The translations under genes were made by a program, and so were the position numbers. Below are positions 9,309-36,492 of a stretch of DNA of 64,000 nt, in pieces (position 1 is the stretch's first letter; each line of letters begins with the position of its first letter). The notes below the pieces were generated by a model that made no database searches, was not told where the DNA came from, and was given only the letters and a program-made list of their open reading frames with translations. Source of the stretch: Kitasatospora gansuensis (lineage in GTDB: Bacteria; Actinomycetota; Actinomycetes; Streptomycetales; Streptomycetaceae); contig NZ_JACHJR010000001.1 of assembly GCF_014203705.1 (NCBI RefSeq), forward strand, positions 1,674,001 to 1,738,000, read 5' to 3'.

Positions 9309-9312
9309 TCAC

Positions 9313-9838: not shown

Positions 9839-9859
9839 GCCGGTGCCTCCCAGAGAATC

Positions 9860-9905: not shown

Positions 9906-10490
9906 GGTTCGGCAATGCCGTTGGAACTCCTGCGGACACCGCCGCCCAAGGAACGCGCGGACGCGGCCCGCAACCGGGCCGCGGTGCTGGAGGCGGCCGC
10001 CAGGCTGTTCGCCGAGCACGGCGTCGAGGCGGTGTCGATGGATCAGGTGGCGGCGGCGGCCGGCGTCGGCAAGGGCACCCTGTTCCGCCGGTTCGGCGAC
10101 AAGTCGGGGCTGGCCGTCGCACTGCTGGACGCCCGCGAGCGGGTGCTGCAGGAGGCGGTCCTGCACGGGCCGCCCCCGCTCGGCCCCGGTGCTCCGGCCG
10201 GCGAGCGCCTGGCCGCGTTCCTCGACGCCTACTTCGACTACCTGCTGGAGCACCTGGCGCTGGTCCGGATGTCCGAGACCGCCACCCCCGGCGCCCGGTA
10301 CCGGATCGGGGCCTACCGGTTCTGGCACCGCCACGTGGCGATCCTGCTGACCACCGCCCCCGACCCGGACCACACCGCCCACGCCCTGCTCGCCGCCCTG
10401 GCCGCCGACCACGTCGCCGCACTCCTGCCGGAGCTCGGCGAACAGCGGATGCGCAGCGGCCTGCGCCACCTCGCCCAGGCCGCGATGTGA
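9876..10490 (+). CDS. TetR/AcrR family transcriptional regulator
   Basis: A regulator of 204 residues from ATG 9876, or 191 from ATG 9915. The N-terminal helix-turn-helix domain is clear: RNRAAVLEAAARLFAEHGVE, then MDQVAAAAGVGKGTLFRRFGDK. The C-terminal ligand-binding part includes LDAYFDYLLEHLALVRMSE, similar to TetR_C domains of unknown ligand. Neither start has a good ribosome site; 9876 may be leaderless, and 9915 would leave both palindromes outside the coding region. It is divergent from the rhodanese gene and convergent with the PAP2 gene, whose stop is 14 bp away. Control of the rhodanese gene and itself is the simplest model. Confidence 0.85.
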   Translation: MAHDNNGLRSGSAMPLELLRTPPPKERADAARNRAAVLEAAARLFAEHGVEAVSMDQVAAAAGVGKGTLFRRFGDKSGLAVALLDARERVLQEAVLHGPPPLGPGAPAGERLAAFLDAYFDYLLEHLALVRMSETATPGARYRIGAYRFWHRHVAILLTTAPDPDHTAHALLAALAADHVAALLPELGEQRMRSGLRHLAQAAM

Positions 10491-10504
10491 CGGTCCCTCA
10501 CCCC

Positions 10505-11464: not shown

Positions 11465-11591
11465 AGGCGCGTCTCCTCGGGTCACGGACGAGCGTGGGGC
11501 GCGCTCGCGCCGAGGAAGCCTGTCATGCACGGATGAGCCGAACCTGGGAGTTTGCTGATGATCGGTTAAGGCCATCGGACGTACAAGGACA

Positions 11592-11625
11592 GACCCGGCG
11601 CCCGCTCGGGCAGGGGCGCCGGGTC
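11592..11625 (-). terminator. terminator of the GH95 gene
   Basis: Perfect 12-bp stem, GACCCGGCGCCC (11592-11603) with GGGCGCCGGGTC (11614-11625), directly beyond the GH95 stop. Confidence 0.8.
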
Positions 11626-11631
11626 GTCCGG

Positions 11632-14487: not shown

Positions 14488-14561
14488 CTTTCGGTCCTCC
14501 TCCTGGCGGGAGCGCGGCTGTCGGGTGGGGCTCCCTGCCAGTACCGGAGTGTGTGATAGAT

Positions 14562-14628
14562 CCGACCTATTGGGCAATACTTTGCGCATTATCGAGTCAG
14601 ATTGAGACAGAGTCCGATATTCATCGGA
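14562..14628. promoter_or_regulatory. GH95 upstream region: palindrome and possible minus-strand promoter
   Basis: A palindrome TCCGAT-attc-ATCGGA spans 14613-14628. On the minus strand, TCGGAC and GATAAT separated by about 18 bases lie next to it and point toward the GH95 start at 14487. The palindrome overlaps the putative -35, as a repressor site would. Weak prediction. Confidence 0.35.
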
Positions 14629-14644
14629 TCTCATGGACGCCCGA

Positions 14645-14676
14645 GAGGCCGCACGCTCTGCTGAGCGGGCGGCCTC
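14645..14676 (-). terminator. terminator of the propeller-RICIN gene
   Basis: GAGGCCGC (14645-14652) pairs with GCGGCCTC (14669-14676), and the loop contains a second GCTC/GAGC pair, giving an extended hairpin 26 bp beyond the stop of the gene at 14703. Confidence 0.65.
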
Positions 14677-14702
14677 CCTTCACCGGTTCAGTGGCGTGCG
14701 TG

Positions 14703-17171
14703 TCAGCTGACGGTCCATCGCTGCAGGGCGGAGCCGGTGTCCGGCTGCTGGGTGACGAGGGATCCGTTCGAGGTGGTGGCGGTGGTCAGCAGGAGTCCGC
14801 TCTTCTGGGAGGCGATCTTGTAGCCACCACCGCTCGCGGGGGTGACCAGCCAGCGCTGGTTGCTGCCGCCGGTGCAGGCCCACTGGATCACCTGGGCGCC
14901 CGCCGACGTCGAGCCACCGCTGACGTCCATGCACAGCTGCGACAGGCCGTTGACGATCTGGTACGAGCCGTCGGTCTGCTGCGTGAAGACCCAGTTCTGG
15001 TTCGCGCCGCCGTTGGGGCTCCAGGTGACGAACTGGGTGCCCTGGCTGGTGGAGTGGTCGGGGTCGTCGAGCGCCTTGCCCGAGGTCAGCACGGTGTGGG
15101 TGCCGCTGAGCGCCGGGTTGACCGTCCAGCTGAAGGACAGCGTGCCGGTCGCGGTGCCCGAGGTCGCGGTGACGGTGACCGTGGACGCCCCGGGGGTGGT
15201 GGGCGTTCCGGAGACCAGGCCGGCGGAGCTGATCGACAGCCCGGCCGGCAGGCCCGTGGCGGAGTAGGTCAGCGGCTTCCCGGCGGAGTCGGTCGCACCG
15301 AGCTGGAGCGAGACGGCCGTGTTGACCTTGGTGGACTGGTCACCGGGGTTGGCGATCACGACCGTCTCGGGTGCCGAACCGGTCTGAGTGAGGGTCAGGG
15401 TCTGCTCGCCCGCGGCACGCGTCCCGCCGACGGCGTTGCCGGTGGCGTTGTTCCAGCTGCGGGTGGGCGTGGTCTCGGCGAGCCGGCTGCTGTCCGAGGA
15501 CATCCCGATCACCAGGCCGCTGTAGCGGTTGACCAGCCGGTACGTACCGGTCGGCGCGTTGCCCGCGGTGGTGCCGGGGATGATGAACCACTGCTGTCCG
15601 ACGCTCGAACCCGCCGCGGTGACGGTGGGCTTGGCACCCCAGGCACGGCCGGCGGTGGAGGCGGAGTTGACGCCCAGCAGCTGCCCGGTCGAGGCGTTGG
15701 CGATCCGGTACGAGCCGTCACCGTTGGAGCTGAACATCCAGGACTCCAGCGCGGAACCGGTGGCGCTCGCCACCGAGGTGGTCGCCGAGCCGCCGGAGAC
15801 CTGGGCCAGGACCCGGCCGTTGCCGCTGGAGATCCGGTACGCCTTGGTCGGGTCGACCGGGGGTGCGGCGGGTGCCGAGGAGCCGATGGTGACGTTCACG
15901 TACTGCCCCGACGCGCCGCCCGAGCAGCCGAACGAGCAGTACGAGCGGAAGGTCTTGCCGACGATCGTGGAGCTGGTGCGGTTCGCGCCGTCGAGGAACC
16001 AGCGGTACCAGGAGGCGGTGTGGTAGCTGCCGGAGTCGCCGATCGGGAACCACTTCTGGGTGGAGAGGTCGTCGGTGGCGTAGTACTGCTGCGGCGCGTT
16101 GCCGCTCTGGTCGACGGCCTGCGGCTCGGCGATGTACAGACCCAGGTAGGCGTTGTAGGTGACGTCCATGACGAACAGCGGCGAGGTCGGGGGCATCTTC
16201 CCGGCCGCGATCTGCTGGTCGGCGGTGCCGGTGTTCGCCGGGTCGTACTCGCCGGCCACCGGGGTGTAGCCGGTGGTGTTGGACGCACCGACGGGCACCA
16301 TGTTGCTCTCCCGGCCGCCGGTACCGGCCTCGGACCAGGAGCCGTCGTACCACTTCTGCCAGGAGCCCGGGGCCATCTTGGACGCGATCGGGGCGCGAGC
16401 CACGTGCGCGTGGAAGGCCTTCCAGCTGCCGTTCTTGTCGACCACCCGGGAGCCGTAGAAGACGTAGAAGTACCCGGAGGCGGTGTCGACCAGCAGCCGC
16501 TGGTCGCCGTCGCCGTAGTCGTACGTCTGGTTCGGGAAGGCGGCGGTGTCACCCCGGGCGGTGCTGTACGGCGAGGTGATCACGTGGTCCTTGATGGTCC
16601 AGGTCTTGCCCTGGTCGGTCGAGACCGCGTAGTCGATCGCGTCGAAGTGCAGGCCGTCGCCGAACGGCTGCGGGGTGAACTCGTTGTGGACCAGGCCGTA
16701 CCAGTCACCGGTGTCCGGATCGACCCACAGCCCCGACAGGTCGCAGTAGTTCTTCTGCGCGTAGCCCGAGCCGCTCGGCGCGAAGGTGGCCTGCAGACCG
16801 GTCGGGCTGTTGTTGCAGCGCCAAGTGGTGTCGTTGTTCCGGTCGTTGGAGTTGGCCGGGTTGACGGCGTTGCTGATCGCCGTCGAGCGGGTGGCGGTGT
16901 CGAAGTCGGTGCCGGTGAAGAAGTCCCAGTACCGGGGGTCGGTCTTGCCGTAGAGCGCCGCGGACTGCTGGAAGTAGAAGGTGCCGTCCTTGTCGATGTA
17001 CGGCACGGCCGGGGTGTCCGTCGGGTGCGTGTACTGCACCGGCGCGGAGACGGTGACCGTGTACGTGGCGGCGGGGGGTGCGGCCTGCGCGGGCCCGGCC
17101 GTCGTACCGGCCAGCGAGAGCAGGGTGGCGCCGAGTGCGACGGCAATTCTTCTGCGGGGTGGGGAGTACAC
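14703..17171 (-). CDS. secreted Asp-box propeller protein with putative-Ig and RICIN domains, function unknown
   Basis: An 822-residue exported protein. After a signal peptide (about 1-30, ending GPAQA) comes a ~400-residue domain with one clear Asp box, STDQGKTW (about 184-191), and Trp/Asp-rich strands such as DLSGLWVDPDTGDWYGLVHN; this resembles sialidase-type propellers, but no catalytic set can be named. A ricin-like stretch follows (RISSGNGRVLAQVSGG), then a putative-Ig (He_PIG) domain (LTYSATGLPAGLSISSAG) and a C-terminal trefoil with NQNW, NQRW and LQRW repeats. GTG 17171 has AAGGAG upstream; the frame extends further but without signal-peptide logic. Third RICIN protein in 11 kb, so likely part of the same glycan-degrading set (inference). 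Confidence 0.8.
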   Translation of the reverse strand: MYSPPRRRIAVALGATLLSLAGTTAGPAQAAPPAATYTVTVSAPVQYTHPTDTPAVPYIDKDGTFYFQQSAALYGKTDPRYWDFFTGTDFDTATRSTAISNAVNPANSNDRNNDTTWRCNNSPTGLQATFAPSGSGYAQKNYCDLSGLWVDPDTGDWYGLVHNEFTPQPFGDGLHFDAIDYAVSTDQGKTWTIKDHVITSPYSTARGDTAAFPNQTYDYGDGDQRLLVDTASGYFYVFYGSRVVDKNGSWKAFHAHVARAPIASKMAPGSWQKWYDGSWSEAGTGGRESNMVPVGASNTTGYTPVAGEYDPANTGTADQQIAAGKMPPTSPLFVMDVTYNAYLGLYIAEPQAVDQSGNAPQQYYATDDLSTQKWFPIGDSGSYHTASWYRWFLDGANRTSSTIVGKTFRSYCSFGCSGGASGQYVNVTIGSSAPAAPPVDPTKAYRISSGNGRVLAQVSGGSATTSVASATGSALESWMFSSNGDGSYRIANASTGQLLGVNSASTAGRAWGAKPTVTAAGSSVGQQWFIIPGTTAGNAPTGTYRLVNRYSGLVIGMSSDSSRLAETTPTRSWNNATGNAVGGTRAAGEQTLTLTQTGSAPETVVIANPGDQSTKVNTAVSLQLGATDSAGKPLTYSATGLPAGLSISSAGLVSGTPTTPGASTVTVTATSGTATGTLSFSWTVNPALSGTHTVLTSGKALDDPDHSTSQGTQFVTWSPNGGANQNWVFTQQTDGSYQIVNGLSQLCMDVSGGSTSAGAQVIQWACTGGSNQRWLVTPASGGGYKIASQKSGLLLTTATTSNGSLVTQQPDTGSALQRWTVS

Positions 17172-17513
17172 GGGTTCTCCTTCGGTGACAGCGCGGGGCT
17201 GTGAGGGGGAGCGCTGGACCGGGTCGGCTCGGGCGGCGACCACGGTGCCTGAAGTTGCTCAAATGGGTGGCTTGGCAAGCAACTTCGCTCAAACCGTGGC
17301 AGCGGATACGGGGCCTGTCAAGGACCCCACCGCCATCGGCCCGGCAGCCCGCGCAGCGCGCCGAAAAGTCCAAGTGCGCCCCTACAAAGGTCCTTTGACC
17401 GGGAGGTTCCGACTGAGCAGAATTGCCCGACGAGCAGCAACAGCCGCACCCCTCGAACCCGGGCAGTAAAATGATCTAGCTACGTTCGGAGGATTGGGCC
17501 TAGGCTGCCCGCC
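17172..17513. other. divergent intergenic region between the propeller gene and the LURP-like gene
   Basis: 342 bp with no supported gene. It contains an inverted repeat at 17251-17286 about 80-115 bp upstream of the propeller gene start, and a GGAGGA at 17488-17493 that is too distant from ATG 17514 to be its normal ribosome site. TAGGCT at 17501-17506 could be a -10 giving a near-leaderless transcript of 17514-18236. Confidence 0.5.
17251..17286. promoter_or_regulatory. inverted repeat upstream of the propeller-RICIN gene
   Basis: GAAGTTGCT (17251-17259) and AGCAACTTC (17278-17286) form perfect 9-bp arms with an 18-bp spacer. The segment GCTCAAA occurs next to both arms as a direct repeat. 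Candidate regulator-binding site; binder unknown. Confidence 0.45.
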
Positions 17514-18236
17514 ATGTCCCAGAACACGAACACCCCGGATATCGCCGGGCAGCCGACCGCCCCGGCCGGCGACTCCGCCAAGGTCCAGCGTCAGGTGCAG
17601 CGGCAGGCGGGCGTAGCACCGGTCACCGGTGGCGGCGGCACTCTTTTCTCCGAGCCGGTCCTGGTGGTGAACCAGAAGGCCAAGCTGATCGAGCTGACCA
17701 ACGAGTACGCGGTCTTCGACCAGCAGGGCGCCACGCTGGGCTCGGTGGTCCAGGTCGGCCAGAGCGGTCTGCGCAAGATCGTGCGACTGCTCTTCTCCAT
17801 CGACCAGTACCTGACCCACAAGCTGGAGATCCGCGACGCCCAGGGCGCCCCGGCGCTGCTGCTGACCCGCCCGGCGAAGTTCATCAAGTCGCGGGTGATC
17901 GTGCAGCGTCCGGACGGCCAGGAGGTCGGCCAGATCGTCCAGCAGAACGCCATCGGGAAGATCAACTTCGCGCTGGAGGTCGGCGGCCGGAAGGTCGGCG
18001 CCGTCAAGGCGGAGAACTGGCGGGCCTGGAACTTCTCCATCGTCGACGAGACGGACACCGAGATCGCCCGGATCACCAAGACCTGGGAAGGCCTGGCGAA
18101 GACGATGTTCACCACGGCCGACAACTACGTGCTCCAGATCCACCGCCCGCTCGCCGAGCCGCTGATCAGCCTGGTCGTGGCGACCGCGCTGACCGTGGAC
18201 ACCGCGCTGAAGCAGGACGCCCGCGGTCTCGGTTAG
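17514..18236 (+). CDS. LURP-one-related / phospholipid scramblase-like protein
   Basis: A 240-residue cytoplasmic protein whose core (about 40-230) has the tubby/LURP-one/scramblase beta-barrel pattern: LFSEPVLVVNQKAKLIELTN, QGATLGSVVQVGQ, HKLEIRDAQGAPALLLTRP, GKINFALEVGGRKVG and WNFSIVDETDTEIARITK. The first ~40 residues are Pro/Gln-rich and disordered. Such proteins are frequent and uncharacterised in streptomycetes; lipid binding is suspected from the fold. Monocistronic: a strong terminator follows at 18255-18294. Confidence 0.8.
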   Translation: MSQNTNTPDIAGQPTAPAGDSAKVQRQVQRQAGVAPVTGGGGTLFSEPVLVVNQKAKLIELTNEYAVFDQQGATLGSVVQVGQSGLRKIVRLLFSIDQYLTHKLEIRDAQGAPALLLTRPAKFIKSRVIVQRPDGQEVGQIVQQNAIGKINFALEVGGRKVGAVKAENWRAWNFSIVDETDTEIARITKTWEGLAKTMFTTADNYVLQIHRPLAEPLISLVVATALTVDTALKQDARGLG

Positions 18237-24074: not shown

Positions 24075-24225
24075 TGGCAAGGGGGTTTGTTCGACTTCCG
24101 GAATCCCGCCCTCGGCTGGTGCAGCCGGATCCGCTCGACGAAGCTCCGGTGAGCGCGATGTCCTGACGGGGCGGCAGGTCGGCCGTCCAGGCGACCGTTG
24201 GGTGGGCGGTTCGCGCGGGTACGGC

Positions 24226-24262
24226 AGCGGGCCCGGAACGGTGGTGCCGTTCCGGGCCCGCT
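24226..24262 (-). terminator. terminator of the giant DUF11 gene
   Basis: Sixteen-bp perfect stem (24226-24241 with 24247-24262) and a 5-base loop, 18 bp beyond the stop codon. Confidence 0.85.
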
Positions 24263-24279
24263 TGAGGGTGCGTCAGGAG

Positions 24280-27200
24280 TTACGCCCGGCCGCGCCGCCT
24301 GCGCCGGTTGGCGAGGACGAGGCAGCCGAGTCCGGCCGGGAGCAGGATCGCTGCGGCTGCGGCGATGAGCGTCACGGCGGTGCCGGTGTACGGGAGGGGC
24401 TTCGGTGCGGGCTTCGGCTGGGCCTTGCCGGTGTGGAGCGGGCCGCCGTCGGGGCCGTTGGTGCCGGCCTTGTTGCTGTTGTTGGAACGGTCGGGGTCGG
24501 GGGTGTCGGAGGCGGCGGTGGCGATGTTGTCGACGTCCTTGCCGTTGCCGGCGTAGGCGGGGTCGAGCTTGACGAGGATGCGGTGGACCGTCTGGTCGCC
24601 GGGTGCGAGTCGTGCGACGGGTCCGCAGGTGACGGTCCGTCCGTTCGCGGTGCAGCCGTCCGGGGAGGAGACGAACGACAGCGCGGTCGGCAGCGGGTCG
24701 GTGACCTCGGCGTTCACCGCGGTGGACGGGCCGTGGTTGGTGGTGGTGAGGGTGTAGGTGAACGTGTCGCCGGGGTCGACCCGGGTCTTGCCGGCCGGGT
24801 AGGCGGCGGACTTGGTCAGTGCGAGGTCGGCGGCGGGTGTGCCGATCCGCAGCGTGTAGGTGTCCTCGTCGTTGTCGGGGCGCCGGTCGGCCGGGTCGCT
24901 GACCCGGATCTTCTCGGTGAGGGTCTGGCCGCCCACCGCGTCCGGGGACACGCGCACGGCGAACGAGGTGTCCACGTAGCCGTCCTGCGCGGCGCGGTTT
25001 CCGGTACGGGACCGCGGCAGGATCCCTGCGGGGAGCTTGCAGGTCGCCCGCTGCGGGGTGTCGACGGTGCAGTGGCCCGGCAGGTCCCGGGCGAAGGAGA
25101 GCTGGGCGGGCAGGGTCACCGAGAAGGTGGCCTCGCCGTGGTGGGTGGACGGTCCGTGGTTGCTGATCCGGCCGGTCAGGTTCACCGTCTCGCCGGGCAC
25201 CGCGGTTTCCTTGGAGAGGATGGCCTGCGCGGCCATGTCGCGCTTGTGCGGTGCGGGTCGGCCCTCGTCGGGCAGGGGAGCGGTGTCGGTGTCGTTGGCG
25301 GGGTTGGGGTCGGTGGTGTCGGCGTCGACCACGGCGCGGTTGACGATGTCGCTGCCGTCACCGGTGTAGGAGGAGTCCAGACGGGTGGTGAGCACGTAGG
25401 TGAACTTCTCACCGACCTTCAGCCGGCCCTTGGCCGGGCAGGTGACCGTCCGGCCCGCGGCATCCACGGTGCAGCCGGCCGGCTGGGAGGACACGTACGT
25501 CAACGGCTTCGGCAGCTGGTCGGTGAGGACCACCTGGTAACTGTCCGACGAGGGGCCGTTGTTGGTGACGGTGATCGTGTAGTCGACGTTCTCCCCGGGA
25601 GCGATCGCGGGGCCGTTCGACGACTTGTCGATCGCGAGGTCGGCTTCACCCCGGGCGGGCTTGCCACCGGGCAACCCGGCGGCAGCGGAGGAGTTGTTCG
25701 ACAGGTCCGGGTCGGCGGTCGCGGTCGAGACCTTCGCGATGTTGCGGATGTCCGAACCGTTCCCCTCGTAGTCCTGGTCCAGTCGGACGGTGAAGGTGAA
25801 AGTCCTCGACCCGTTGGCTGCCAGTGCCGCCTGGGCCGGGCAGGTCACGTCCTGACCGGTCGCGGTGCATCCGTCTACCGAGGAGACGAATGCCAGCGGC
25901 GCGGGAAGCGCGTCGGTCGTCTTCACGTCCAGCGCCTGCGCCGGACCGGCGTTGGTGACGGTGACCGTGTAGTCGAACGTCCCGCCCGGAGGCACCGGTG
26001 TGGTGGAGGCCGGCTTCTTGGTCACCGACACGTCCGCCTTGGCCGGGGCCGGCGGGTTCGGGCCGGGACCCGGGCCCGGCAGACCGCCGGTGGCGGCGTC
26101 GGAGGTGTTGTTGCTCAGGTCGGGGTCGGCGCTGTCGGTGGCGACCTTCGCCTGGTTGCGCACGTCCGTACCATCGCCGGTGTAGGCCGGGTCGAGCTGC
26201 ACCTTGATGGTGTAGGTCTTGGACGCCTTGACCGCCAGGGTGCCCAGCTTGGGGCAGGTCACGCTCTGGCCGACGGCCGTGCAACTGTCGCTCGCCGAAA
26301 CGAACTTCAGCGTCGAAGGCAGCTCGTCCGACACCACCAGGCCCGAGGCCTGGGAGGGGCCGTTGTTGGTGACGGTGACGGTGTAGTCGAACGTCTCACC
26401 AGGACCCACGGGCGTGGTGCTCGCCGGCTTCTTGGTGATCGCCACATCAGCCTTGACCGGAGCGGGCGGATTCGGACCGGGCCCGGGCAGGGTGCCGGTG
26501 GCTCCGTCGGAGGTGTTGTTGCTCGGGTCGGGGTCGGCAGTGTCCGTGGCGACCTTCGCCTGGTTGCGCACGTCCGTACCATCGCCGGTGTAGGCCGGGT
26601 CGAGCTGGACGGTGATCGTGTACGACTTCGAAGCACCCACCGCCAAGGACACCAGCTTCGGACAGGAGACCTCCTGGCCGGCCGCAGTGCAACTGTCGCT
26701 CGCCGAAACGAACTTCAGCACCGACGGCAGCGCATCCGTGACCACCAGGCCGGACGCCTGCGAGGGCCCGTTGTTGGTGACGGTGACGGTGTAGTCGAAC
26801 GTCTCGCCCGGAGCCACCGGCGTGGTGCTCGCCGGCTTCTTGGTGATCGTCACGTCCGCCTTGGCCGGGGCCGGCGGGTTCGGGCCGGGGCCCGGACCGG
26901 GAAGACCGCCGGTGGAGGCGTCGGAGGTGTTGTTGCTCTGATCCGGGTCCGGGCTGTCGGTGACGACCTTCGCCTGATTGCGCACGTCCTTGCCGTCACC
27001 GGCGTACGCCGGGTCCAGCTGCACCGTGATCGTGTAGGTCCTGGACGCCTTCGCCGCGAGGACGGGAACCTTGGGGCAGGTCACGTCCTGGCCGTTGGCG
27101 GTGCAACTGTCGCTCGCCGAAACGAACTTCAGCATCACCGGCAGCGCATCCGACACCACCAGACCACTGGCGTCCGACGGCCCGTTGTTCGTCACCGCAA

Positions 27201-30200
27201 TCTCATAGGTAAAGATCTCGCCCGGCGCGACGGGGGTGGTGCTCGTGGCCTTCTTGGTGATCGCCACGTCCGCCTTCACCGGGGCCGGCGGATTCGGACC
27301 AGGGCCCGGGCCGGGGAGACCACCCGTGGAGGCGTCCGAGGTGTTGTTGCTCTGATCCGGGTCCGGGCTGTCGGTGACGACCTTCGCCTGGTTACGCACA
27401 TCCGTACCGTCACCGGCGTACGCCGGGTCCAGCTGCACCGTGATCGTGTACGACTTCGAAGCACCCACCGCCAGGGACGCGAGCTTCGGACAGGTCACAC
27501 TCCGCCCAGCAGCAGTACAACCATCGCTCGCGGACACGAAGTTGAACACCGATGGCAGCTCGTCCGACACCACGAGACCGGCAGCCTGCGAGGGGCCGTT
27601 ATCGGTGACGGTGATCGTGTAGTCGAACGTCTCACCCGGCGCGACCGGGGTGGTGCTCGTGGCCTTCTTGGTGATCGCCACGTCCGCCTTCACCGGAGCC
27701 GGCGGATTCGGACCAGGGCCCGGGCCGGGGAGACCACCCGTGGAGGCATCCGAGGTGTTGTTGCTCTGATCCGGGTCCGGGCTGTCGGTAGCGACCTTCG
27801 CCTGGTTACGCACGTCCGTACCGTCACCGGCGTACGCCGGATCGAGCTGCACCGTGATCGTGTAGGTCTTGGACGCCTTCACCGCCAGGGTGCCCAGCTT
27901 CGAGCACGTCACGTTCTGGCCTGTCGCCGTGCAACTGTCGCTCGCCGAGACGAACTTCAGCATCGAAGGCAGCTCGTCGGTCACGGCCAGGCCCTTGGCG
28001 TCCGAGGGGCCGTTGTTGGTGACGGTGACGGTGTAGTCGAACGTCTCGCCCGGCGCGACCGGGGTGGTACTCGCGGCCTTCTTGACGATCGCCACATCCG
28101 CCTTCACCGGAGCCGGCGGATTCGGACCAGGGCCCGGGCCGGGGAGACCACCCGTGGAGGCGTCCGAGGTGTTGTTGCTCTGATCCGGGTCCGGGCTGTC
28201 GGTGACGACCTTCGCCTGGTTACGCACGTCCTTGCCGTCACCGGCGTACGCCGGGTCCAGCTGCACCTTGATCGTGTAGGTCCTGGACGCCTTCGCCGCG
28301 AGGACGGGGACCTTGGGGCAGGTCACGTCCTGGCCGTTGGCGGTGCAACTGTCGCTCGCCGAAACAAACTTCAGCATCGACGGCAGCGCATCCGACACCA
28401 CCAGGCCCGAGGCCTGCGAAGGACCGTTGTTCGTCACCGCGATCGTGTAGTCGAACGACTCACCCGCAGCCACCAGCGTGCTGCTCGCGGCCTTCTTGAC
28501 GATCGCCACATCCGCCTTCACCGGAGCCGGCGGATTCGGACCAGGACCCGGACCCGGCAGACCACCAGTCGACGCGTCCGACGTGTTGTTGCTCAGGTCG
28601 GGGTCGGCGCTGTCCGTGGCCGCCTTCGCCTGGTTCTTCACGTCCTTGCCGTCACCCGCATACCCCGGATCGAGCTGCACCGTGATCGTGTAGGACTTCG
28701 ACGCCTTCGCCGCCAACGTGGCCAGCTTCGGACACGTCACATCCTGCCCGGCAGCAGTGCAACTGTCGCTCGCCGAAACAAACTTCAGCATCGACGGCAG
28801 CGCATCCGTCACCACCACACCTGAAGCGTCCGAGGGCCCCTTGTTGATGACCGTGATCGTGTAGTCGAACGACTCACCCGCAGCCACCAACGTGGTGCTC
28901 GCGGCCTTCTTGACGATCGCGACATCCGCCTTCACCGGAGCCGGCGGATTCGGACCGGGTCCGGGCAGAGTGCCGGTGGCGCCATCGGAAGTGTTGTTGC
29001 TCAGGTCCGGGTCGGCGCTGTCGGTCGCGGCCTTCGCCTGGTTGCGCACGTCCGAGCCGTCACCGGTGTAGGCCGGGTCGAGCTGAACGGTGATCGTGTA
29101 CGTCTTCGACGCCTTCGCAGCCAGCGTGGCCAGCTTGGGGCACGTCACGTCCTGCCCGGCAGCGGTGCAACTGTCGCTTGCGGAGACGAACTTCAGCACG
29201 GCGGGCAACGCGTCCGTGACCACCAGGCCCTTCGCGTCCGAAGGCCCGTTGTTGGTGACGGTCACCGTGTAGTCGAACGACTCCCCCGGAGCGACCGGTG
29301 CGGCCGACGCGGGCTTCTTGGTGATCGCGACGTCGGCCTTCACCGGCGCCGGGGGGTTCGGGCCCGGGCCCGGGCCGGGCAGGCCACCGGTGTTGGCGTC
29401 GGAGGTGTTGTTGCTCAGGTCCGGGTCGGCGCTGTCCGTGGCCGCCTTCGCCTGGTTCTTCACGTCCTTGCCGTCACCGGCGTAGGCCGGGTCGAGCTGC
29501 ACGGTGATCGTGTAGGACTTCGACGCCTTCGCCGCCAACGTGGCCAGCTTCGGACACGTCACGTCCTGCCCGGCAGCAGTGCAACTGTCGCTCGCCGAAA
29601 GAAACTTCAGCACCGACGGCAGCGCATCCGTCACCACCACACCTGAAGCGTCCGAGGGCCCGTTGTTGATGACCGTGACCGTGTAGTCGAACATCTCACC
29701 AGGGGCGACCAACGTGGACGACGAAGCCTTCTTCGTGATCGCGACGTCTGCCTTCACCGGTGCCGGCGGGTACGGACCCGGGTCCGGACCCGGCAGCGTG
29801 CCGGTCGACGCATCCGAGGTGTTGTTGCTCAGGTCCGGGTCGGCGCTGTCGGTCGCGGCCTTCGCCTGGTTGCGGACGTCCGAGCCGTCACCGGCATACG
29901 CCGGATCCAACTGCACCTTGATCGTGTAGGACCTCGCCGCCTTGGCCGCCAGCGTGGCCAGCTTCGGACAGGTCACATCCCGGCCGGCGGCAGTGCAACT
30001 GTCAGGCGACGAGATGAACTTCAGCATCGACGGCAGCGCGTCGGTGACTACGAGGCCGGAAGCCTGCGAGGGTCCGTTGTTCGTCACGGTGATCGTGTAG
30101 TCGAACGTCTCACCCGGAGCCACCGGGGTCGGGGACGCGGGCTTCTTGGCGATGGCGACGTCGGCCTTCACCGGTGCCGGCGGGTTGGGCATCGGGCCCG

Positions 30201-33200
30201 GGCCGGGCAGGCCGCCGGTCGAAGCGTCCGAGGTGTTGTTCGAGGTGTCCGGGTCAGCGGTGTCGGACTTGACGGAGGCCTGGTTGCGAATGTCCTTCCC
30301 GTCGCCGGCGTAGGCCGGATCGAGCCGCACCGTGATCTTGTAGACCTGGGTCTTGCCCGGGTCCAGGGTTGCCGGTCCGGTGCAGGTGATGTCCTGACCG
30401 GCGGCGCTGCAGCCGGGAGCTGCGGACACGAACGCCAGCTGCGCCGGCAGTGCGTCCGTCACCACGAGGCTCTTCGCCTGCGAGGGGCCGTTGTTGGTGA
30501 CCGTGATCTCGTAGTCGTAGGTGCCGCCGGGCGGGACCGGTGCGGTTCCCAGGGGCTTCTTGGTGATGGCGAGGTCGGCGTTGGCCGGGGCCGGGGGGTT
30601 GGGCTGGGGGCCGGGGCCGGGCAGGCCGCCGGTCGACGCGTCCGAGGTGTTGTTCGAGGTGTCCGGGTCAACGGTGTCGGACTTGACCGTTCCCTGGTTT
30701 CGGATGTCCTTGCCGTCGCCGGAGTAGGCCGGGTCCAGTTGCACGGTGATCTTGTAGACCTGGGTCTTGCCCGAGTCCAGTGTCGCGGGGCCGGCGCAGG
30801 TCACCTGCTGGCCCGTGGCGGTACAGCCGGTGTCGGCCGAGACGAAGTTGAGCACCGTGGGCAGGTTGTCGGCCGTGGTCAGGTTCTTCGCCTGGGAGGG
30901 GCCGTTGTTGGTGACCGTCAAGTTGTAGCTGAAGGTCTGACCCGGCGAGACCAGCGCCGCGCCTTCGGCCTGCTTGACGATGGCGAGGTCGGCGGACGCG
31001 GGGGCCGGCGGATTGGGATCAGGTCCCGGGCCGGGCAGACCCCCGGTCGAAGCGTCCGAGGTGTTGTTCGAGGTGTCCGGGTCAACGGTGTCGGACTTGA
31101 CGGAGGCTTGGTTGCGAATGTCCTTCCCGTCACCGGCGTACGCCTGGTCGAGCCGCACCGTGATCTTGTAGGTGCGTGTGGCCTTGGCATCCAGTGCAGC
31201 CGGGCCGGTGCAGGTCACCGTCTGGCCGGAGGCCGTGCAGCCGGTGTCGGCAGAGACGAAGCGCACCTGTACTGGCAGTGCGTCGGTGACCGTGACGTTC
31301 TTCGCTTGTGAGAGGCCCTTGTTGGTGACCGTGATCTCGTAGTCGAACGTGGTGCCCGGTGTGACGAGCGTGGTGCCGAACGGCTTCTTGGTGATGGCGA
31401 GGTCGGCAGTGGCCGGCGCCGGCGGGTTGGGGCCCGGGCCGGGGCCGGGCAGGCCGCCGGTCGACGCGTCGGAGGTGTTGTTCGAGGTGTCCGGGTCAGC
31501 GGTGTCGGACTTGACGGAGGCTTGGTTGCGGATGTCCTTGCCGTCACCGGTGTAGGCCTGGTCGAGCCGCACCGTGATCTTGTAGACCTGGGTCTTACCG
31601 GGGTCCAGGGTCACCGGGCCGGTGCAGGTCACTGCCTGGCCCGAGGCGGTGCAGCCGGTGTCGGCGGAGACGAAGTGCAGTTCCGCCTGGAGCTGGTCCG
31701 TGACGGTGATGTTCCGTGCTTGGGAGGGGCCGTTGTTGGTGACGGCGATCTCGTAGTCGAACGTGCCGCCGGACGGGACCAGGGCCGAGCCGAGGGGCTT
31801 CTTGGTAATCGCCAGGTCGGCCTTCGCCGGCGCCGGAGGATTCGGGGACGGACCAGGACCCGGCAGACCACCGGTCGCAGCGTCCGAAGTGTTGTTCGAC
31901 GAGTCGGGGTCAGCCGTGTCCGACTTCACCGACGCCTGATTCCGGATGTCCTTCCCATCACCCGCATAGGCAGGGTCCAGCCGAACCTTGACCGTGTAGA
32001 CCTTGCTCCCCGCAGGAGCCAGTACCGCCGGGCCGTTGCACGTCACCGTCTGCCCGGCCGCCGAGCAACCGGTGTCACCCGAGACGAACGTCAACTCCTT
32101 CTGCAGCGTGTCCGTCACCACCACGTTCGCCGCCTGCGACGGACCCTTGTTCGTCACCGTCAGCTGATACTCGAAGGACTCACCCGGAGCCACCGACGTA
32201 GTGCCCACCGGCTTCTTCGTGACCGTCAGATCCGCCGAACCCGGCTTGGGCGGGTTCGGCGACGGACCAGGACCCGGCAGACCACCGGTCGCCGCGTCCG
32301 AGGTGTTGTTCGACGAGTCGGGGTCGGCCGTGTCCGACTTCACCGACGCCTGATTCTTGATGTCCTTCCCGTCGCCGCTGTACGCGGGATCGAGCATCAC
32401 CTTGACCGTGTAGACCTTGCTCCCCGCAGGAGCCAGTACCGCCGGGCCGTTGCACGTCACCGTCTGCCCGGCCGCCGAGCAACCGGTGTCACCCGAGACG
32501 AACGTCAACTCCTTCTGCAGCGTGTCCGTCACCACCACGTTCGCCGCCTGCGACGGACCCTTGTTCGTCACCGTCAGCTGATACTCGAAGGACTCACCCG
32601 GAGCCACCGACGCCGTACCGACCGGCTTCTTCGTGATCGCCAGATCGGCGCTCGGCTTGGCCGGCGGATACGGCCCCGGATCCGGGCCAGGACCGGGAAG
32701 GTGACCGGTCGAGGCATCCGAGGTGTTGTTCGACAGATCCGGATCCGTCGCGTCCGAGGACACCGACGCCTGGTTCTTGATGTCCGTACCGTCACCGGTA
32801 TAGGCCGGGTCGAGCTTCACCGTGATCTTGACGACCTTCGACGCACCGGCACCCAACGCAGTACCCAGCGTGCACGTGACCTTCTGCCCTGAAGCCGTAC
32901 ACCCAGAATCTGACGAGACGAAAGTCAGCGGGCTCTGGAGGGTGTCGGTCACGACCACGTTCGTCGCCTGCGACGGGCCCTTGTTCGTCACCGTCAGCTG
33001 GTACTCGAACGTCTCACCCGGAGCCACCGCCTTCGACCCCACCGGCGCCTTGGTGATCGCCAGGTCGGCCGTCGCCTTCGCCGTGGTCTTCAGTGTGAAG
33101 TCCGCCGAGTTGTTCGTGGCGACGCCGTCCTCGGTATTCGCCACGGCGGCCTTGCCACCCGACAGCGTGGTGTCCAGCGGCGCGTCCTGGTCGATCGCCA

Positions 33201-36200
33201 CAGCGACCGGGAACGAGGTCGAGGCGCCGGCCTTCAGACCGGCCGCGATGGTGCAGGTCACCGTCTTGCGGTCGGCCGCCGCGGTGCAGCCGGCCGGCTG
33301 CGTCGCGGCGGCCTTGGTGTTGGCCGGCATGGTGACCGTCACGGTCGAGGCGGAGGTGGTGTCCGACGGGCCGAGGTTCTTGACCGTCGCCGTGACGGTC
33401 GCCACGGTGCCCGGGGTCTGGGCGTCGGTCGGAGCCGACACCGCCATCGACAGGTCGTTGGACGCCTTGGCCGTCGTGGACAGCGCCACAGCCGCCGTGT
33501 TGTTCGCGGTGTTCGGATCGTCCGGGGAGGCCACCACCGCCGATCCGCCCGACAGGGCGGTCGCGAGCGGGGCGTTCGAGTCGACGACCAGCGGGATCTC
33601 GAAAGTGCTCGTGCCGTCCTTGGCCAGGCCGGCGGCGACGGTGCAGGTGACCGACTTGCCGTCAGTAGCCGCCGTGCAGCCGGACGGGAGCGGCGAACCG
33701 AGCGTGGTGCGCTGCGGCAGGGTGAACGTCACGGTCGCCACGGATTCCGTCGCCAGCGGCCCCTTGTTGGTGACCGTCAGGGTCGCCGTGGACTTGCCGC
33801 CGGGTGCCACCGGGTTCGGAGAGGCCGCCGCGGTCATCGCCAAGTCGCTGGACCGCACCGAGACCTTGGCGTTCGGGCAGGTGGCCGGCTTCGAAGCATC
33901 CGTACACAGCGTGTTGGTGTCGAACGTGTCCGAGGTCAGCGCCGTCACGGCGTTGAGGAACTCACCCTCCTTGGTGCCCTTCACCGTGATCTTCAGTGTC
34001 GCGGTCGCGTCCTTGGCCAGGGCGCCGACCGTCCACTTGCCGGTGGCCTTGTCGTACTTGCCCCCCGAGTCGTCCGACACGTAGGTGAGGCCCGACGGCA
34101 GCTGGTCGGTGAGTACGACGTTGACCGCCGCGTTCGGGCCCTCGTTCTTCACGGCGACGGTGAACACCGCCTGACCGCCGATCAGCACCGACGACTTGTC
34201 CACGGTCTTGGTCACGGCCAGCGCCGCCGGCGGCGCGATCGATACCGGCGCCACCTTCGACAGGGTCGTCAGGGCATCCCCGGCGAAGTCGTTGGTGGCG
34301 GTGCCCATTGGCGCCGCGCTCTTCACCTTCGCCTGGAAGGTGAACGAGTACGATTTGCCGGCGGCCACCGTGAACAGGCCGGCCCAGGCCACTTTGGAGC
34401 CGGTGACGGTCGGTTCGTCCAGGCCCGTTCCCTCGCTCGAGCCGGCGACGTAGTCCAGCCGGCTGTCCAGCGTGTCGGTGAAGCCGAAGGTGGTCGCCGA
34501 ATAGGAATTCGGGTTGGTGAACTTCACCGTGTAGGTGACGGTTTCGCCCGGCTGCACCTTACTCGGCGACACCGTCTTCTCCGACACCATCGGCTTCACG
34601 TCCGCCGGGCGGAAGTAGGTGAAGAAGCTGTAGGTCTTGGACTCACCCGCCGCCAGCGAGTACGGCCACGAAATAGCCATGCCACTGTCGACGCTGTTCG
34701 TGCAATCACAGGTGCTGGGCAGCGCCTTGCCACTCTGGACCTGGCTCCTGACCGTGCCGTAGTTCCCCTCCGAGTACGAGCTGCCGGGAGTCAGCGGCAC
34801 AAACATCATCGCCTGGCCGGTGCCGTCGGAGTTCTTCACGCACGCGATGCCGTTGCCCACCCCCGGGGCCCGCGGCAGCACCACGCCATAACTGCTGTCA
34901 CTGCCCTGCAGGTAGCAGTCGCCGGCCCGGTACAGGTTGCCGGTCTGCTTCTTGCTGTCATTGTTCGTGACCGTGATGTCGACCCGGAACCCGTGCTCGC
35001 CGTTGACGTACGTCTCCGTCTGGGACAGGCTCATCACCGAGGCGGCCGTGAAATCCGTCGTCATGGTGAACGGGTCGGCCGAGGTGCCCGCGCCGGTGGT
35101 CGGCGTCTGATTGACGGCCTGGGTCCGATAGGACGAGCCGCTCGACACGTAGTCCACAGCGCCGTAGACGTTGCTCCCCACACTGATGCCGGTACCGCAG
35201 CTGTCGCTGAAGAACTGCTTCGTGTCGTTGTAGTACGCGTAACACCCACCGGTCGTCGTCGTCTGGATCGAGGTCACCGGCTTGCCTGTGATGGTGCCGC
35301 TGCTGGACACGATGACCCCGACAGTGTCGGTGAGGGCCTGTGCCCCGGTCGCCGTCTGGGTCGCGGTATACGTCACCTTGCTGCTGCTCGTGCTCTGCCC
35401 GGCGGCGATGATCGACCAGGTCCCGTCAGCCGCGACGGTCGCCGAGCCGACGGTCGACGAGCCGCGGGTGAGCGTCACCTTTGCCCCCGGCATGCCGGTG
35501 CCCGTGAACTCGGTGGTGGTCCCGACGGTCTCACCCTCCGTCGGCGACGTGATCTTCACAGCCGGGATCTGCCACTCGACCACGACCGCGCCGGCGGTCT
35601 GCGGGTTGCCGTACTTGTCGCTGTCGTAGAACGCGTCGTCCGTACCGCCGGGCGTCTTGCCCGAGCCCGCGGTAGTGGTGCCGCCCGGGACCTTCGCGGT
35701 GTCCACATAGCCGCTGCCGCCGCCACCACCGGCGGCGCTCTGGCTCACCAGACCACCGTCACCGCCCGCGCCACCGGCGTAGCCGGAACCACCGGCGCCG
35801 CCGCCGTTGCTGCCGCCGGTCCCTGCCGCACCGCCCGCGCCGCCTGCCCCGAGCGGCCCGTCACCGCCCGCCTTGCCCGCACGGGTGCCGCTGACCTTCC
35901 CCGCGGCGCCTCCGGTCTTACCGACCGCGCCGTTGCCGCCCTTGGCGTCCGAAGTGCCGCCGGCGTCACCGCCGTTCGCGCCATCCGTGCCACCGCCGGC
36001 CCCACCGCTACCCCCCGAGGCTCCCCGGCCACCGCCGCCACCACCGCCGGCGACCAACAGCAGGGTGCCGGAGTTGTCCTTCACCCAGACCGCACCGCCA
36101 CCGGTGCCCGCACCGGAGCTGGTGGACGCCGCTGAAGGGATGGAGATCGAGTACGACGTCGCCAGCGGCGCCGAGATGTTCCCGAGGGTGTAACCGCCGC

Positions 36201-36492
36201 CACCGCCGGAACCGGCGCCCTTGGTGTCGTCCGAGTTGCCGCCGCCACCACCCCACAGGTGGAAACGCACCGCAGTCGCCCCGGCCGGCGGCGTGAACGT
36301 CTGCGTGGAGCTGCTGCTTCGGAAGACCTGGCACTGGTTGTAGCCCGAGGTCTTCGCGGTACACGCCCCCGCCGCGGCCCGCGGCTGCGGCGCTCCGGAG
36401 CCGGCCCCGACCGGGATCGCGATGGACGGCATGCCCAGGACCGTCGCCCAGGCCAGTGTGGCCGCGAACAGTCGTCTCATCCCGCTGACCAT
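24280..36492 (-). CDS. giant cell-wall-anchored DUF11 repeat protein (4,070 residues)
   Basis: A single uninterrupted gene of 12.2 kb. Order: signal peptide (about 1-40); glycine-rich domain (about 45-310; SSTQTFTPPAGATAVRFHLW then long Gly tracts); a bacterial Ig-like domain (about 310-395); a ~240-residue unassigned beta-rich domain; four divergent DUF11-type domains (about 635-1140); 18 closely related ~138-residue DUF11 modules (about 1140-3610), each with VAPGETFDYTVTVTNNGPS, one Cys pair (SCTAAGQDVTC) and an LPGPGPGPNPPAP linker; three more divergent DUF11 domains; then LPYTG at residue 4033, a hydrophobic segment and an RRRRRGRA tail. This is a sortase substrate that would project far from the wall, as a stalk or adhesin (inference). 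No sortase gene is in the window. ATG 36492 is used; ATG 36480 is possible. Confidence 0.9.
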   Translation of the reverse strand: MVSGMRRLFAATLAWATVLGMPSIAIPVGAGSGAPQPRAAAGACTAKTSGYNQCQVFRSSSSTQTFTPPAGATAVRFHLWGGGGGNSDDTKGAGSGGGGGYTLGNISAPLATSYSISIPSAASTSSGAGTGGGAVWVKDNSGTLLLVAGGGGGGGRGASGGSGGAGGGTDGANGGDAGGTSDAKGGNGAVGKTGGAAGKVSGTRAGKAGGDGPLGAGGAGGAAGTGGSNGGGAGGSGYAGGAGGDGGLVSQSAAGGGGGSGYVDTAKVPGGTTTAGSGKTPGGTDDAFYDSDKYGNPQTAGAVVVEWQIPAVKITSPTEGETVGTTTEFTGTGMPGAKVTLTRGSSTVGSATVAADGTWSIIAAGQSTSSSKVTYTATQTATGAQALTDTVGVIVSSSGTITGKPVTSIQTTTTGGCYAYYNDTKQFFSDSCGTGISVGSNVYGAVDYVSSGSSYRTQAVNQTPTTGAGTSADPFTMTTDFTAASVMSLSQTETYVNGEHGFRVDITVTNNDSKKQTGNLYRAGDCYLQGSDSSYGVVLPRAPGVGNGIACVKNSDGTGQAMMFVPLTPGSSYSEGNYGTVRSQVQSGKALPSTCDCTNSVDSGMAISWPYSLAAGESKTYSFFTYFRPADVKPMVSEKTVSPSKVQPGETVTYTVKFTNPNSYSATTFGFTDTLDSRLDYVAGSSEGTGLDEPTVTGSKVAWAGLFTVAAGKSYSFTFQAKVKSAAPMGTATNDFAGDALTTLSKVAPVSIAPPAALAVTKTVDKSSVLIGGQAVFTVAVKNEGPNAAVNVVLTDQLPSGLTYVSDDSGGKYDKATGKWTVGALAKDATATLKITVKGTKEGEFLNAVTALTSDTFDTNTLCTDASKPATCPNAKVSVRSSDLAMTAAASPNPVAPGGKSTATLTVTNKGPLATESVATVTFTLPQRTTLGSPLPSGCTAATDGKSVTCTVAAGLAKDGTSTFEIPLVVDSNAPLATALSGGSAVVASPDDPNTANNTAAVALSTTAKASNDLSMAVSAPTDAQTPGTVATVTATVKNLGPSDTTSASTVTVTMPANTKAAATQPAGCTAAADRKTVTCTIAAGLKAGASTSFPVAVAIDQDAPLDTTLSGGKAAVANTEDGVATNNSADFTLKTTAKATADLAITKAPVGSKAVAPGETFEYQLTVTNKGPSQATNVVVTDTLQSPLTFVSSDSGCTASGQKVTCTLGTALGAGASKVVKITVKLDPAYTGDGTDIKNQASVSSDATDPDLSNNTSDASTGHLPGPGPDPGPYPPAKPSADLAITKKPVGTASVAPGESFEYQLTVTNKGPSQAANVVVTDTLQKELTFVSGDTGCSAAGQTVTCNGPAVLAPAGSKVYTVKVMLDPAYSGDGKDIKNQASVKSDTADPDSSNNTSDAATGGLPGPGPSPNPPKPGSADLTVTKKPVGTTSVAPGESFEYQLTVTNKGPSQAANVVVTDTLQKELTFVSGDTGCSAAGQTVTCNGPAVLAPAGSKVYTVKVRLDPAYAGDGKDIRNQASVKSDTADPDSSNNTSDAATGGLPGPGPSPNPPAPAKADLAITKKPLGSALVPSGGTFDYEIAVTNNGPSQARNITVTDQLQAELHFVSADTGCTASGQAVTCTGPVTLDPGKTQVYKITVRLDQAYTGDGKDIRNQASVKSDTADPDTSNNTSDASTGGLPGPGPGPNPPAPATADLAITKKPFGTTLVTPGTTFDYEITVTNKGLSQAKNVTVTDALPVQVRFVSADTGCTASGQTVTCTGPAALDAKATRTYKITVRLDQAYAGDGKDIRNQASVKSDTVDPDTSNNTSDASTGGLPGPGPDPNPPAPASADLAIVKQAEGAALVSPGQTFSYNLTVTNNGPSQAKNLTTADNLPTVLNFVSADTGCTATGQQVTCAGPATLDSGKTQVYKITVQLDPAYSGDGKDIRNQGTVKSDTVDPDTSNNTSDASTGGLPGPGPQPNPPAPANADLAITKKPLGTAPVPPGGTYDYEITVTNNGPSQAKSLVVTDALPAQLAFVSAAPGCSAAGQDITCTGPATLDPGKTQVYKITVRLDPAYAGDGKDIRNQASVKSDTADPDTSNNTSDASTGGLPGPGPMPNPPAPVKADVAIAKKPASPTPVAPGETFDYTITVTNNGPSQASGLVVTDALPSMLKFISSPDSCTAAGRDVTCPKLATLAAKAARSYTIKVQLDPAYAGDGSDVRNQAKAATDSADPDLSNNTSDASTGTLPGPDPGPYPPAPVKADVAITKKASSSTLVAPGEMFDYTVTVINNGPSDASGVVVTDALPSVLKFLSASDSCTAAGQDVTCPKLATLAAKASKSYTITVQLDPAYAGDGKDVKNQAKAATDSADPDLSNNTSDANTGGLPGPGPGPNPPAPVKADVAITKKPASAAPVAPGESFDYTVTVTNNGPSDAKGLVVTDALPAVLKFVSASDSCTAAGQDVTCPKLATLAAKASKTYTITVQLDPAYTGDGSDVRNQAKAATDSADPDLSNNTSDGATGTLPGPGPNPPAPVKADVAIVKKAASTTLVAAGESFDYTITVINKGPSDASGVVVTDALPSMLKFVSASDSCTAAGQDVTCPKLATLAAKASKSYTITVQLDPGYAGDGKDVKNQAKAATDSADPDLSNNTSDASTGGLPGPGPGPNPPAPVKADVAIVKKAASSTLVAAGESFDYTIAVTNNGPSQASGLVVSDALPSMLKFVSASDSCTANGQDVTCPKVPVLAAKASRTYTIKVQLDPAYAGDGKDVRNQAKVVTDSPDPDQSNNTSDASTGGLPGPGPGPNPPAPVKADVAIVKKAASTTPVAPGETFDYTVTVTNNGPSDAKGLAVTDELPSMLKFVSASDSCTATGQNVTCSKLGTLAVKASKTYTITVQLDPAYAGDGTDVRNQAKVATDSPDPDQSNNTSDASTGGLPGPGPGPNPPAPVKADVAITKKATSTTPVAPGETFDYTITVTDNGPSQAAGLVVSDELPSVFNFVSASDGCTAAGRSVTCPKLASLAVGASKSYTITVQLDPAYAGDGTDVRNQAKVVTDSPDPDQSNNTSDASTGGLPGPGPGPNPPAPVKADVAITKKATSTTPVAPGEIFTYEIAVTNNGPSDASGLVVSDALPVMLKFVSASDSCTANGQDVTCPKVPVLAAKASRTYTITVQLDPAYAGDGKDVRNQAKVVTDSPDPDQSNNTSDASTGGLPGPGPGPNPPAPAKADVTITKKPASTTPVAPGETFDYTVTVTNNGPSQASGLVVTDALPSVLKFVSASDSCTAAGQEVSCPKLVSLAVGASKSYTITVQLDPAYTGDGTDVRNQAKVATDTADPDPSNNTSDGATGTLPGPGPNPPAPVKADVAITKKPASTTPVGPGETFDYTVTVTNNGPSQASGLVVSDELPSTLKFVSASDSCTAVGQSVTCPKLGTLAVKASKTYTIKVQLDPAYTGDGTDVRNQAKVATDSADPDLSNNTSDAATGGLPGPGPGPNPPAPAKADVSVTKKPASTTPVPPGGTFDYTVTVTNAGPAQALDVKTTDALPAPLAFVSSVDGCTATGQDVTCPAQAALAANGSRTFTFTVRLDQDYEGNGSDIRNIAKVSTATADPDLSNNSSAAAGLPGGKPARGEADLAIDKSSNGPAIAPGENVDYTITVTNNGPSSDSYQVVLTDQLPKPLTYVSSQPAGCTVDAAGRTVTCPAKGRLKVGEKFTYVLTTRLDSSYTGDGSDIVNRAVVDADTTDPNPANDTDTAPLPDEGRPAPHKRDMAAQAILSKETAVPGETVNLTGRISNHGPSTHHGEATFSVTLPAQLSFARDLPGHCTVDTPQRATCKLPAGILPRSRTGNRAAQDGYVDTSFAVRVSPDAVGGQTLTEKIRVSDPADRRPDNDEDTYTLRIGTPAADLALTKSAAYPAGKTRVDPGDTFTYTLTTTNHGPSTAVNAEVTDPLPTALSFVSSPDGCTANGRTVTCGPVARLAPGDQTVHRILVKLDPAYAGNGKDVDNIATAASDTPDPDRSNNSNKAGTNGPDGGPLHTGKAQPKPAPKPLPYTGTAVTLIAAAAAILLPAGLGCLVLANRRRRRGRA
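24382..24396 (-). other. LPYTG sortase motif codons
   Basis: Encodes L-P-Y-T-G near the end of the giant protein, followed by a ~25-residue hydrophobic stretch and a basic tail. This is the classic LPXTG arrangement, whereas streptomycete chaplins use LAXTG recognised by class E sortases. Confidence 0.85.
25640..33075 (-). repeat. array of 18 tandem ~414-bp DUF11 modules
   Basis: In-frame tandem repeats inside the giant gene. The linker landmark (complement of the Pro-rich linker) recurs at 27281, 27695, 28109, 28523 and 28937, exactly 414 bp apart, then at 29345 (408 bp, because that linker lacks two codons). Modules at the protein N-terminal side start DLAITKKP; those at the C-terminal side start DVAITKK. 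Several neighbours are nearly identical at the DNA level, indicating recent duplication or gene conversion. Confidence 0.9.

Follow-up and report, generated by a model that had tools for sequence, protein, structure and literature searches.

A giant, probably wall-anchored CLIPPER-stalk protein of Kitasatospora gansuensis with a head domain outside Pfam and an adjoining partner gene

A single gene of 12.2 kb in Kitasatospora gansuensis raises the question of what kind of surface protein its 4,070-residue product is, and of which of its parts depart from systems already described. The gene lies in a stretch of 64,000 nucleotides (contig NZ_JACHJR010000001.1, positions 1,674,001 to 1,738,000), referred to here as the window, whose own numbering is used throughout. 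What is known of sortase-displayed proteins in streptomycetes comes mainly from the chaplins. An earlier note on this DNA had proposed a wall-anchored stalk of DUF11 domains, a reading that fits the sequence, an AlphaFold model and the literature. The gene is real, and by our reading it encodes a fibrillar surface protein with a CLIPPER stalk, a known kind of protein; this variant bears an unrecognised supersandwich head and has a partner gene beside it. The stalk design is already known; what is new is a head without a Pfam match, the fast change of that head, and the adjoining partner gene. No paper on this giant protein was found in the open-access literature, including searches that combined DUF11 with Kitasatospora, and it is not named in the accessible portions of PMC8401907, PMC11573180 and PMC9210967.

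Table 1. Features of the giant gene and its partner, in window coordinates
Feature	Position	Strand	Basis
Whole gene, giant CLIPPER (DUF11) stalk protein, 4,070 aa	24280..36492	-	Frame, translation, Pfam, composition
Signal-peptide-like segment, residues about 1-40	36373..36492	-	By eye: MRR and hydrophobic stretch
Gly-rich N-terminal region, residues about 45-288	35629..36360	-	Translation; model pLDDT below 50 over the middle
Ig-like (Big_6-like) domain, residues 289-402	35287..35628	-	Pfam match below cut-off
Head domain, residues 403-630, predicted barrel-free supersandwich	34603..35286	-	Model; no Pfam-A family
Four N-terminal DUF11/DUF7927-type domains, residues 631-1140	33073..34602	-	Profile; two with Lys/Asp/Asn triad, two apparently without
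Core array of 18 CLIPPER repeats with Pro-rich linkers, residues 1142-3604	25681..33069	-	All 18 with triad and Cys pair
Three C-terminal CLIPPER-type domains, residues 3617-4008	24469..25644	-	Middle one apparently without triad
Sorting tail, residues 4033-4070: LPYTG, hydrophobic stretch, Arg-rich end	24283..24396	-	By eye
Partner gene, 209 aa	36657..37286	+	One DUF11-like domain; start and membrane span by eye

By the list of open reading frames and by translation, the gene is one frame without an internal stop, running from an ATG at 36492 to a stop codon at 24280–24282. The earlier note had described this frame and its length correctly and had left the strand unnamed; it is the minus strand. 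The GC content at codon positions 1, 2 and 3 (0.60, 0.57 and 0.89) is that of coding DNA, and the TTA codon is absent from the gene. Long frames on the plus strand, for example 24202–28824, were taken to be antisense frames of GC-rich DNA, and a promoter scan was uninformative (one found against 0.5 expected). A repeat array of this length might be suspected of being an assembly artefact, which the earlier note had named as an outcome that would undo its reading. This is unlikely, because the repeats have diverged in DNA (the 17 repeat units compared share a mean identity of 72% and a maximum of 91%, and the longest exact repeat within the gene is 214 bases) and because three other genomes carry a gene of the same layout; the artefact was therefore rejected. 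These relatives, all intact, have 4,660 residues (G050), 4,908 residues from the start chosen (G039) and, in a second genus, 5,916 residues in the printed frame (G113). Since all three are larger, the suggestion that the window protein is one of the largest surface proteins to be expected in a streptomycete did not hold up. Further DUF11 proteins of 2,740–3,897 residues were found in another five or more of the 70 genus genomes, and DUF11 in general is common, being present in at least 64 of the 70.

The greater part of the chain is a series of such domains. Pfam DUF11 (PF01345) scores 1608.9 bits over the whole protein in 24 stretches, above its curated cut-off, and DUF7927 scores 172.9 bits; NCBIfam reports a DUF11-type repeat in 22 stretches and an isopeptide-forming fimbrial domain in 14. 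A profile of our own, based on repeats taken from four related proteins, recognises 25 DUF11-type domains, in agreement with the earlier estimate of about 25: four follow the head, 18 form a core array that repeats every 138 residues or so (414 bp), and three precede the tail. The same profile matches 28, 31 and 35 domains in G050, G039 and G113, respectively. The Ig-like domain also reported earlier is present as a Big_6 match, at a sub-threshold score (23.2 bits against a cut-off of 27.6), and the Gly-rich region has no Pfam match. Elsewhere in the window, positions 46801–48462 encode a protein that looks secreted and combines a Gly-rich ALK/LTK-type domain with a Big_3_5 Ig-like domain, and at 17514–18236 a scramblase-family match, here in a bacterium, adjoins a gene for a PIG-L deacetylase.

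In 2025 DUF11 was renamed CLIPPER, and a crystal structure (9IFR) showed an isopeptide bond between Lys and Asn, with an Asp close by; according to the available part of that report, the bond confers resistance to heat and proteases (PMC12617251). Searched at E up to 0.01 against 177,635 distinct PDB sequences, the repeat profile has 9IFR as its sole match (E 0.0012). A model of two adjacent repeats made with AlphaFold (mean pLDDT 87.8; residues 123–135, in the linker, below 50) superposes on 9IFR with Z 12.7 and rmsd 2.5 over 116 residues, which gives the predicted repeat a CnaA-like fold. Integrin legs outscore 9IFR over both domains of the model (Z up to 15.2), but at an rmsd near 7, and the pilins EbpB, BcpA and PilA are also among the fold neighbours. 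In the alignment of the profile with the PDB sequence, the Lys and Asp of the repeat align with a Lys and an Asp of 9IFR, whose spacing in that alignment exceeds by one the spacing given by the published residue numbers.

The full Lys/Asp/Asn triad is found in 22 of the 25 window domains, and the other three apparently lack all three residues; this count combines 21 fully aligned domains (20 complete, one empty) with four partial alignments settled by eye (two complete, two empty). Domains three and four are without the triad in all three intact relatives, as is the last-but-one domain in G039 and G113, its counterpart in G050 not being matched by the profile. Partial sets occur in one G039 domain (residues 1019–1128), which has an Asn at the aligned place with neither an Asp nor an aligned Lys, and in one G113 domain (1160–1277), which keeps Asp and Asn without Lys. 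Because the three residues are mostly kept or lost together, albeit in domains that are not independent of one another, the pattern supports a coupled function, and in each CLIPPER domain Lys and Asn are probably joined in an isopeptide bond aided by Asp. In addition, 23 of the 25 window domains carry a pair of Cys residues at one site, which probably forms a disulfide. In the part of PMC12617251 available, disulfides are reported for 41.3% of the isopeptide domains of this sort in Actinomycetota and, in CLIPPER domains, at various sites. The three pairs of repeats tested gave pN/pS values of 0.17–0.37. Both the window domains and the solved structure 9IFR support reading this part of the protein as a stalk, and the arrangement, with tandem stalk domains inside a long protein that is presumably secreted given its signal-peptide-like start (an MRR and a hydrophobic stretch, by eye), is that of a fibrillar adhesin. 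With two possible covalent locks in each domain, the repeats may suit the making of tough protein filaments.

At the other end, the chain closes with PKPLPYTG, some 25 mostly hydrophobic residues and RRRRRGRA, as read by eye, the LPYTG lying at residues 4033–4037 (24382–24396). The three intact relatives end in LPDTG, LPHTG and LPDTG, and an LPXTG-type tail is thus common to all four intact genes; against an anchor, the TIGR01167 (LPXTG_anchor) profile did not report the window tail in the genome search at E up to 1, nor at E 0.001. The genome holds eight sortase-family matches, none within the window. Two exceed the class E cut-off (256 and 228 bits against 160) and four that of class F (193–214 bits against 166), and none of the eight lies above the cut-off for class C or class D, the classes for which the earlier note had suggested a search. 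The other two, sortase-like membrane proteins below all class cut-offs (L007 and L008, at G000:C1:557229-557477 and 5526320-5526634) are without Cys at the TLTTC/LITCG place and are possibly inactive sortase relatives. The best class E sortase has SrtE1 of Streptomyces coelicolor as its closest PDB match (5CUW, E 1e-64). In the available portions of the respective papers, SrtE1 is described as cleaving both LPETG and LAETG in vitro, the peptide with Ala two-fold better (PMC5148588), and SrtE of Actinoplanes missouriensis as responsible for SspA, with LPVTG as the motif that its authors inferred (PMC13251363). The tails read in the K. gansuensis genome, from 20 tail-profile loci among the 26 places listed, comprise 10 of LAXTG type, six of LPXTG type and four of neither. 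The proposal that a tail unlike the LAXTG of chaplins might be attached by a different sortase is therefore weak: classes E and F alone are represented above a class cut-off, LPXTG tails are ordinary in this genome, and SrtE1 accepts LPETG in vitro. By these motif and profile comparisons a class E or class F sortase could suffice for the LPYTG tail, and anchoring to the wall would be by a resident sortase, most likely of class E. The same genome has a second DUF11 cluster (L074, G000:C1:6020083-6025696), which includes a 754-residue protein ending in LPDTG.

The head is the least familiar part of the protein. No Pfam-A family matches it at E up to 0.1 in any of five copies (window, G050, G039, the second G113 copy and G126), and the NCBIfam matches in four copies all lie below cut-off, the window copy resembling a protease model (E 0.068) and the G126 copy a large-adhesin model (E 0.0013); neither collection places a known adhesive family in the head above cut-off. 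A profile of the head matched none of the PDB sequences at E up to 1. The model of the whole head region, computed from six sequences, is of moderate quality (mean pLDDT 66.3), with much of the Gly-rich part below 50, and its last 228 residues superpose on the N-terminal supersandwich of GH94 cellobiose phosphorylase with Z 17.0 and rmsd 3.1 over 210 residues; GH116 follows with Z 16.8. In GH94 and GH116 enzymes a catalytic (alpha/alpha)6 barrel comes after the N-terminal supersandwich. In the window protein the supersandwich is followed by DUF7927 and DUF11 domains, and no glycosidase is among the 17 Pfam families reported. The shared fold is by itself no proof that the head binds sugar. The head most likely binds a ligand as the tip of the protein and, to judge by the predicted fold, perhaps a polysaccharide. 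The open-access literature listed for supersandwich together with adhesin held nothing judged relevant by listing alone.

This head changes faster than the adjoining stalk domains. In the ortholog pairs window-G050, window-G039 and G050-G039, pN/pS is 0.76, 0.80 and 0.87 in the supersandwich and 0.56, 0.52 and 0.39 in the next 509–510 residues, values to be compared within the gene only, as codon bias lowers pS. The Gly-rich region gives 0.50, 0.47 and 0.51 and the Ig-like domain 0.87, 0.59 and 0.63, the first of these above the head; by pN alone, the supersandwich is the highest of the four parts in all three pairs. The fast change could instead reflect relaxed constraint.

All four intact genes, which span two genera, have retained the supersandwich, but the domain is rare. 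It is found in three of 70 genus genomes (E up to 1e-10), in five of 394 family genomes, those three included, and in two of 391 order genomes, one of them the window's own. G113 carries it twice, and in G126 it stands with an Ig-like stretch, recognised by eye. In G399 (L047) the same head is followed by DUF11-like domains and, by eye, a long collagen-like GPTG repeat. Pattern scans of genome contigs yielded no relative among 116 pattern matches with one profile (A2) and one among 51 with another (A3): Streptomyces sp. CC208A, in which the frame of the giant gene stops after 1,051 residues, within the first core repeat. In G034 a C-terminal remnant is all that is left, with a stop and a frame change. 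The giant gene is dispensable, as its rarity (three of 70) and its breakage in CC208A and G034 show. Five other giants of the genus (in G064, G069, G059, G019 and G025; 2,740–3,897 residues) begin with a Gly-rich region and have 18–27 domains matching our profile, and four of them end in LPxTG, the incomplete frame of G025 ending without an anchor; the head was not matched in these five genomes in the genus search.

Upstream of the giant gene, on the opposite strand, lies a small gene whose product of 209 residues has a signal-like start, one DUF11-like domain (29.9 bits) and a conserved TTAC...C-S-D segment, and ends in a stretch resembling a membrane span and an Arg tail, with no LPXTG. This partner gene stands beside all four intact giant genes. 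At E below 1e-8 it is matched in exactly three of the 70 genus genomes, which are those with the head, and in each it adjoins the giant gene; the partner beside the G113 giant is matched at E 5.8e-4. G039 holds a second copy elsewhere, and a DUF11 cluster (8164617-8170721) lies about 12 kb from that copy. Weaker matches (3.5e-6 to 8.9e-5) occur in five other genus genomes, four of them in frames of at least 506 residues and the fifth, in G034, beside the remnant of the giant gene. No partner was found in G126, nor at E 0.01 in CC208A, where the giant gene is broken and the search had no positive control; G399, with the head and no giant gene seen, has three matches on other contigs. The association between partner and giant gene is clear, but it is based on few, related genomes. 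The partner probably has a role in export, folding or attachment of the base. Near the giant and partner genes of G050 lies a gene (L034) for a 774-residue protein that resembles a metalloprotease, contains an HELGH motif and ends in an LPDTG tail.

Our preferred reading, which we regard as probable though far from settled, is that of a single-chain, sortase-anchored fibrillar stalk that presents a fast-changing head at the cell surface, acts as a monomer and is served by the partner. The chain would be exported by way of its signal peptide, and each CLIPPER domain would fold into a CnaA-like Ig sandwich carrying a Lys-Asn isopeptide bond and a disulfide from its Cys pair. Pro-rich linkers would string these locked beads into an extensible stalk with a reach of roughly 0.2 micrometre, because 18 domains of 4–5 nm alternate with linkers of similar length. 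A resident sortase, most likely of class E, would cleave the LPYTG tail and link the chain to the wall, so that the N-terminal end of the stalk could display the Gly-rich region, the Ig-like domain and the supersandwich, the last most likely binding a ligand that might be a polysaccharide. The adjoining membrane-anchored partner, with its single DUF11 domain, would probably assist at one of the steps named above. More tentatively, and with rather less confidence, one may picture an adhesion module of two genes in filamentous actinomycetes, in which a supersandwich freed of its glycosidase barrel has become a fast-evolving sugar-binding tip, the stalk behind it consists of as many as 30 or so beads locked by isopeptide and disulfide bonds, and secretion, folding or seating of the chain depends on the partner. 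Were this so, the head would found a new family of adhesive domains and the partner would be a new kind of assembly factor.

The stalk might, on the other hand, be the functional part itself, a brush on hyphae or spores that spaces surfaces or masks shorter proteins, with the N-terminal domains as mere caps. The five genus giants that pair a Gly-rich start with CLIPPER-type domains in genomes without a head match agree with such a role, and steric regulation has been raised for proteins of this type in the accessible part of PMC9210967. We nevertheless consider it somewhat unlikely, given that the supersandwich is kept in four intact genes, occurs twice in G113 and stands before a collagen-like stalk in G399, and that it changes faster than the stalk domains next to it. 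Rather improbable, too, is that the head serves secreted glycosidases by capturing polysaccharide of plants or fungi. This would suit its predicted fold and the genes for a GH95 glycosidase and a ricin-type lectin that lie 7–18 kb away in the window (6582–17243), but near the genes of the relatives the sole trace of such neighbours is one partial lectin match, beside that of G039, and binding residues were not identified in the head.

Two further possibilities bear on the gene as a whole rather than on its head. Were the protein a pilin that a class C sortase polymerises head to tail, the NCBIfam domain RrgB_K2N_iso_D2, the isopeptide-forming fimbrial domain found above cut-off, and the pilins among the fold neighbours would be explained, but such an assembly is exceedingly improbable and was rejected, none of the eight sortase matches exceeding the class C cut-off and none lying within the window; one chain, moreover, already has about 4,000 residues. 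It is the sortases present that favour a monomer over a polymerised pilus. A decaying relic or an assembly artefact without function would account for the rare and patchy occurrence, the broken gene of CC208A and the remnant in G034, yet 4,070 open codons of coding composition, the pN/pS of 0.17–0.37 in the repeat pairs, four intact long genes in two genera and the divergence of the window gene's repeats in DNA make this very improbable. The family offers a giant stalk in which almost every domain probably carries a covalent lock, together with an unrecognised head and a partner gene. Since some related genomes have the gene intact, some have it broken and others do not have it, a part in adhesion or in hyphal spacing is directly testable by deletion.

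Among known systems, one of the closest is the CLIPPER fibrillar adhesin B9T28_05395 of Acinetobacter silvestris (9IFR), which shares the CnaA-like Ig domain and the Lys/Asp/Asn triad; the window protein differs in having 25 domains, 23 of them with a Cys pair nine residues apart, whereas in 9IFR the last strand contains a CTTC motif. CLIPPER adhesins at large likewise place tandem repeats mid-way in a long secreted protein, and from these the window protein is set apart by its uniform Pro-rich core linkers, its LPXTG tail and its unrecognised head. The Gly-rich-start giants of its own genus resemble it in their N-terminus, their CLIPPER-type domains and, in four of five, an LPxTG end, but the supersandwich is matched in the window protein and not in their genomes. 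GH94 and GH116 enzymes resemble the head in its predicted fold (Z up to 17.0), which in the window protein comes without the (alpha/alpha)6 barrel and at 10–15% identity. Periscope proteins, such as Sgo_0707 with its SHIRT repeats, also combine a head, a repetitive stalk and a wall anchor, and their repeat number varies among relatives, as far as the available text of PMC8201768 describes them; their repeats are highly identical, whereas those of the window protein average 72% in DNA. Finally, the SrtE-anchored proteins, namely the chaplins of S. coelicolor and SspA, CwpA and CwpB of A. missouriensis, are like the window protein surface proteins of filamentous actinomycetes with sortase tails, but CwpA and CwpB have 337 and 436 residues, SspA is called disordered, and none of these three is described as a CLIPPER stalk in the part of PMC13251363 available.
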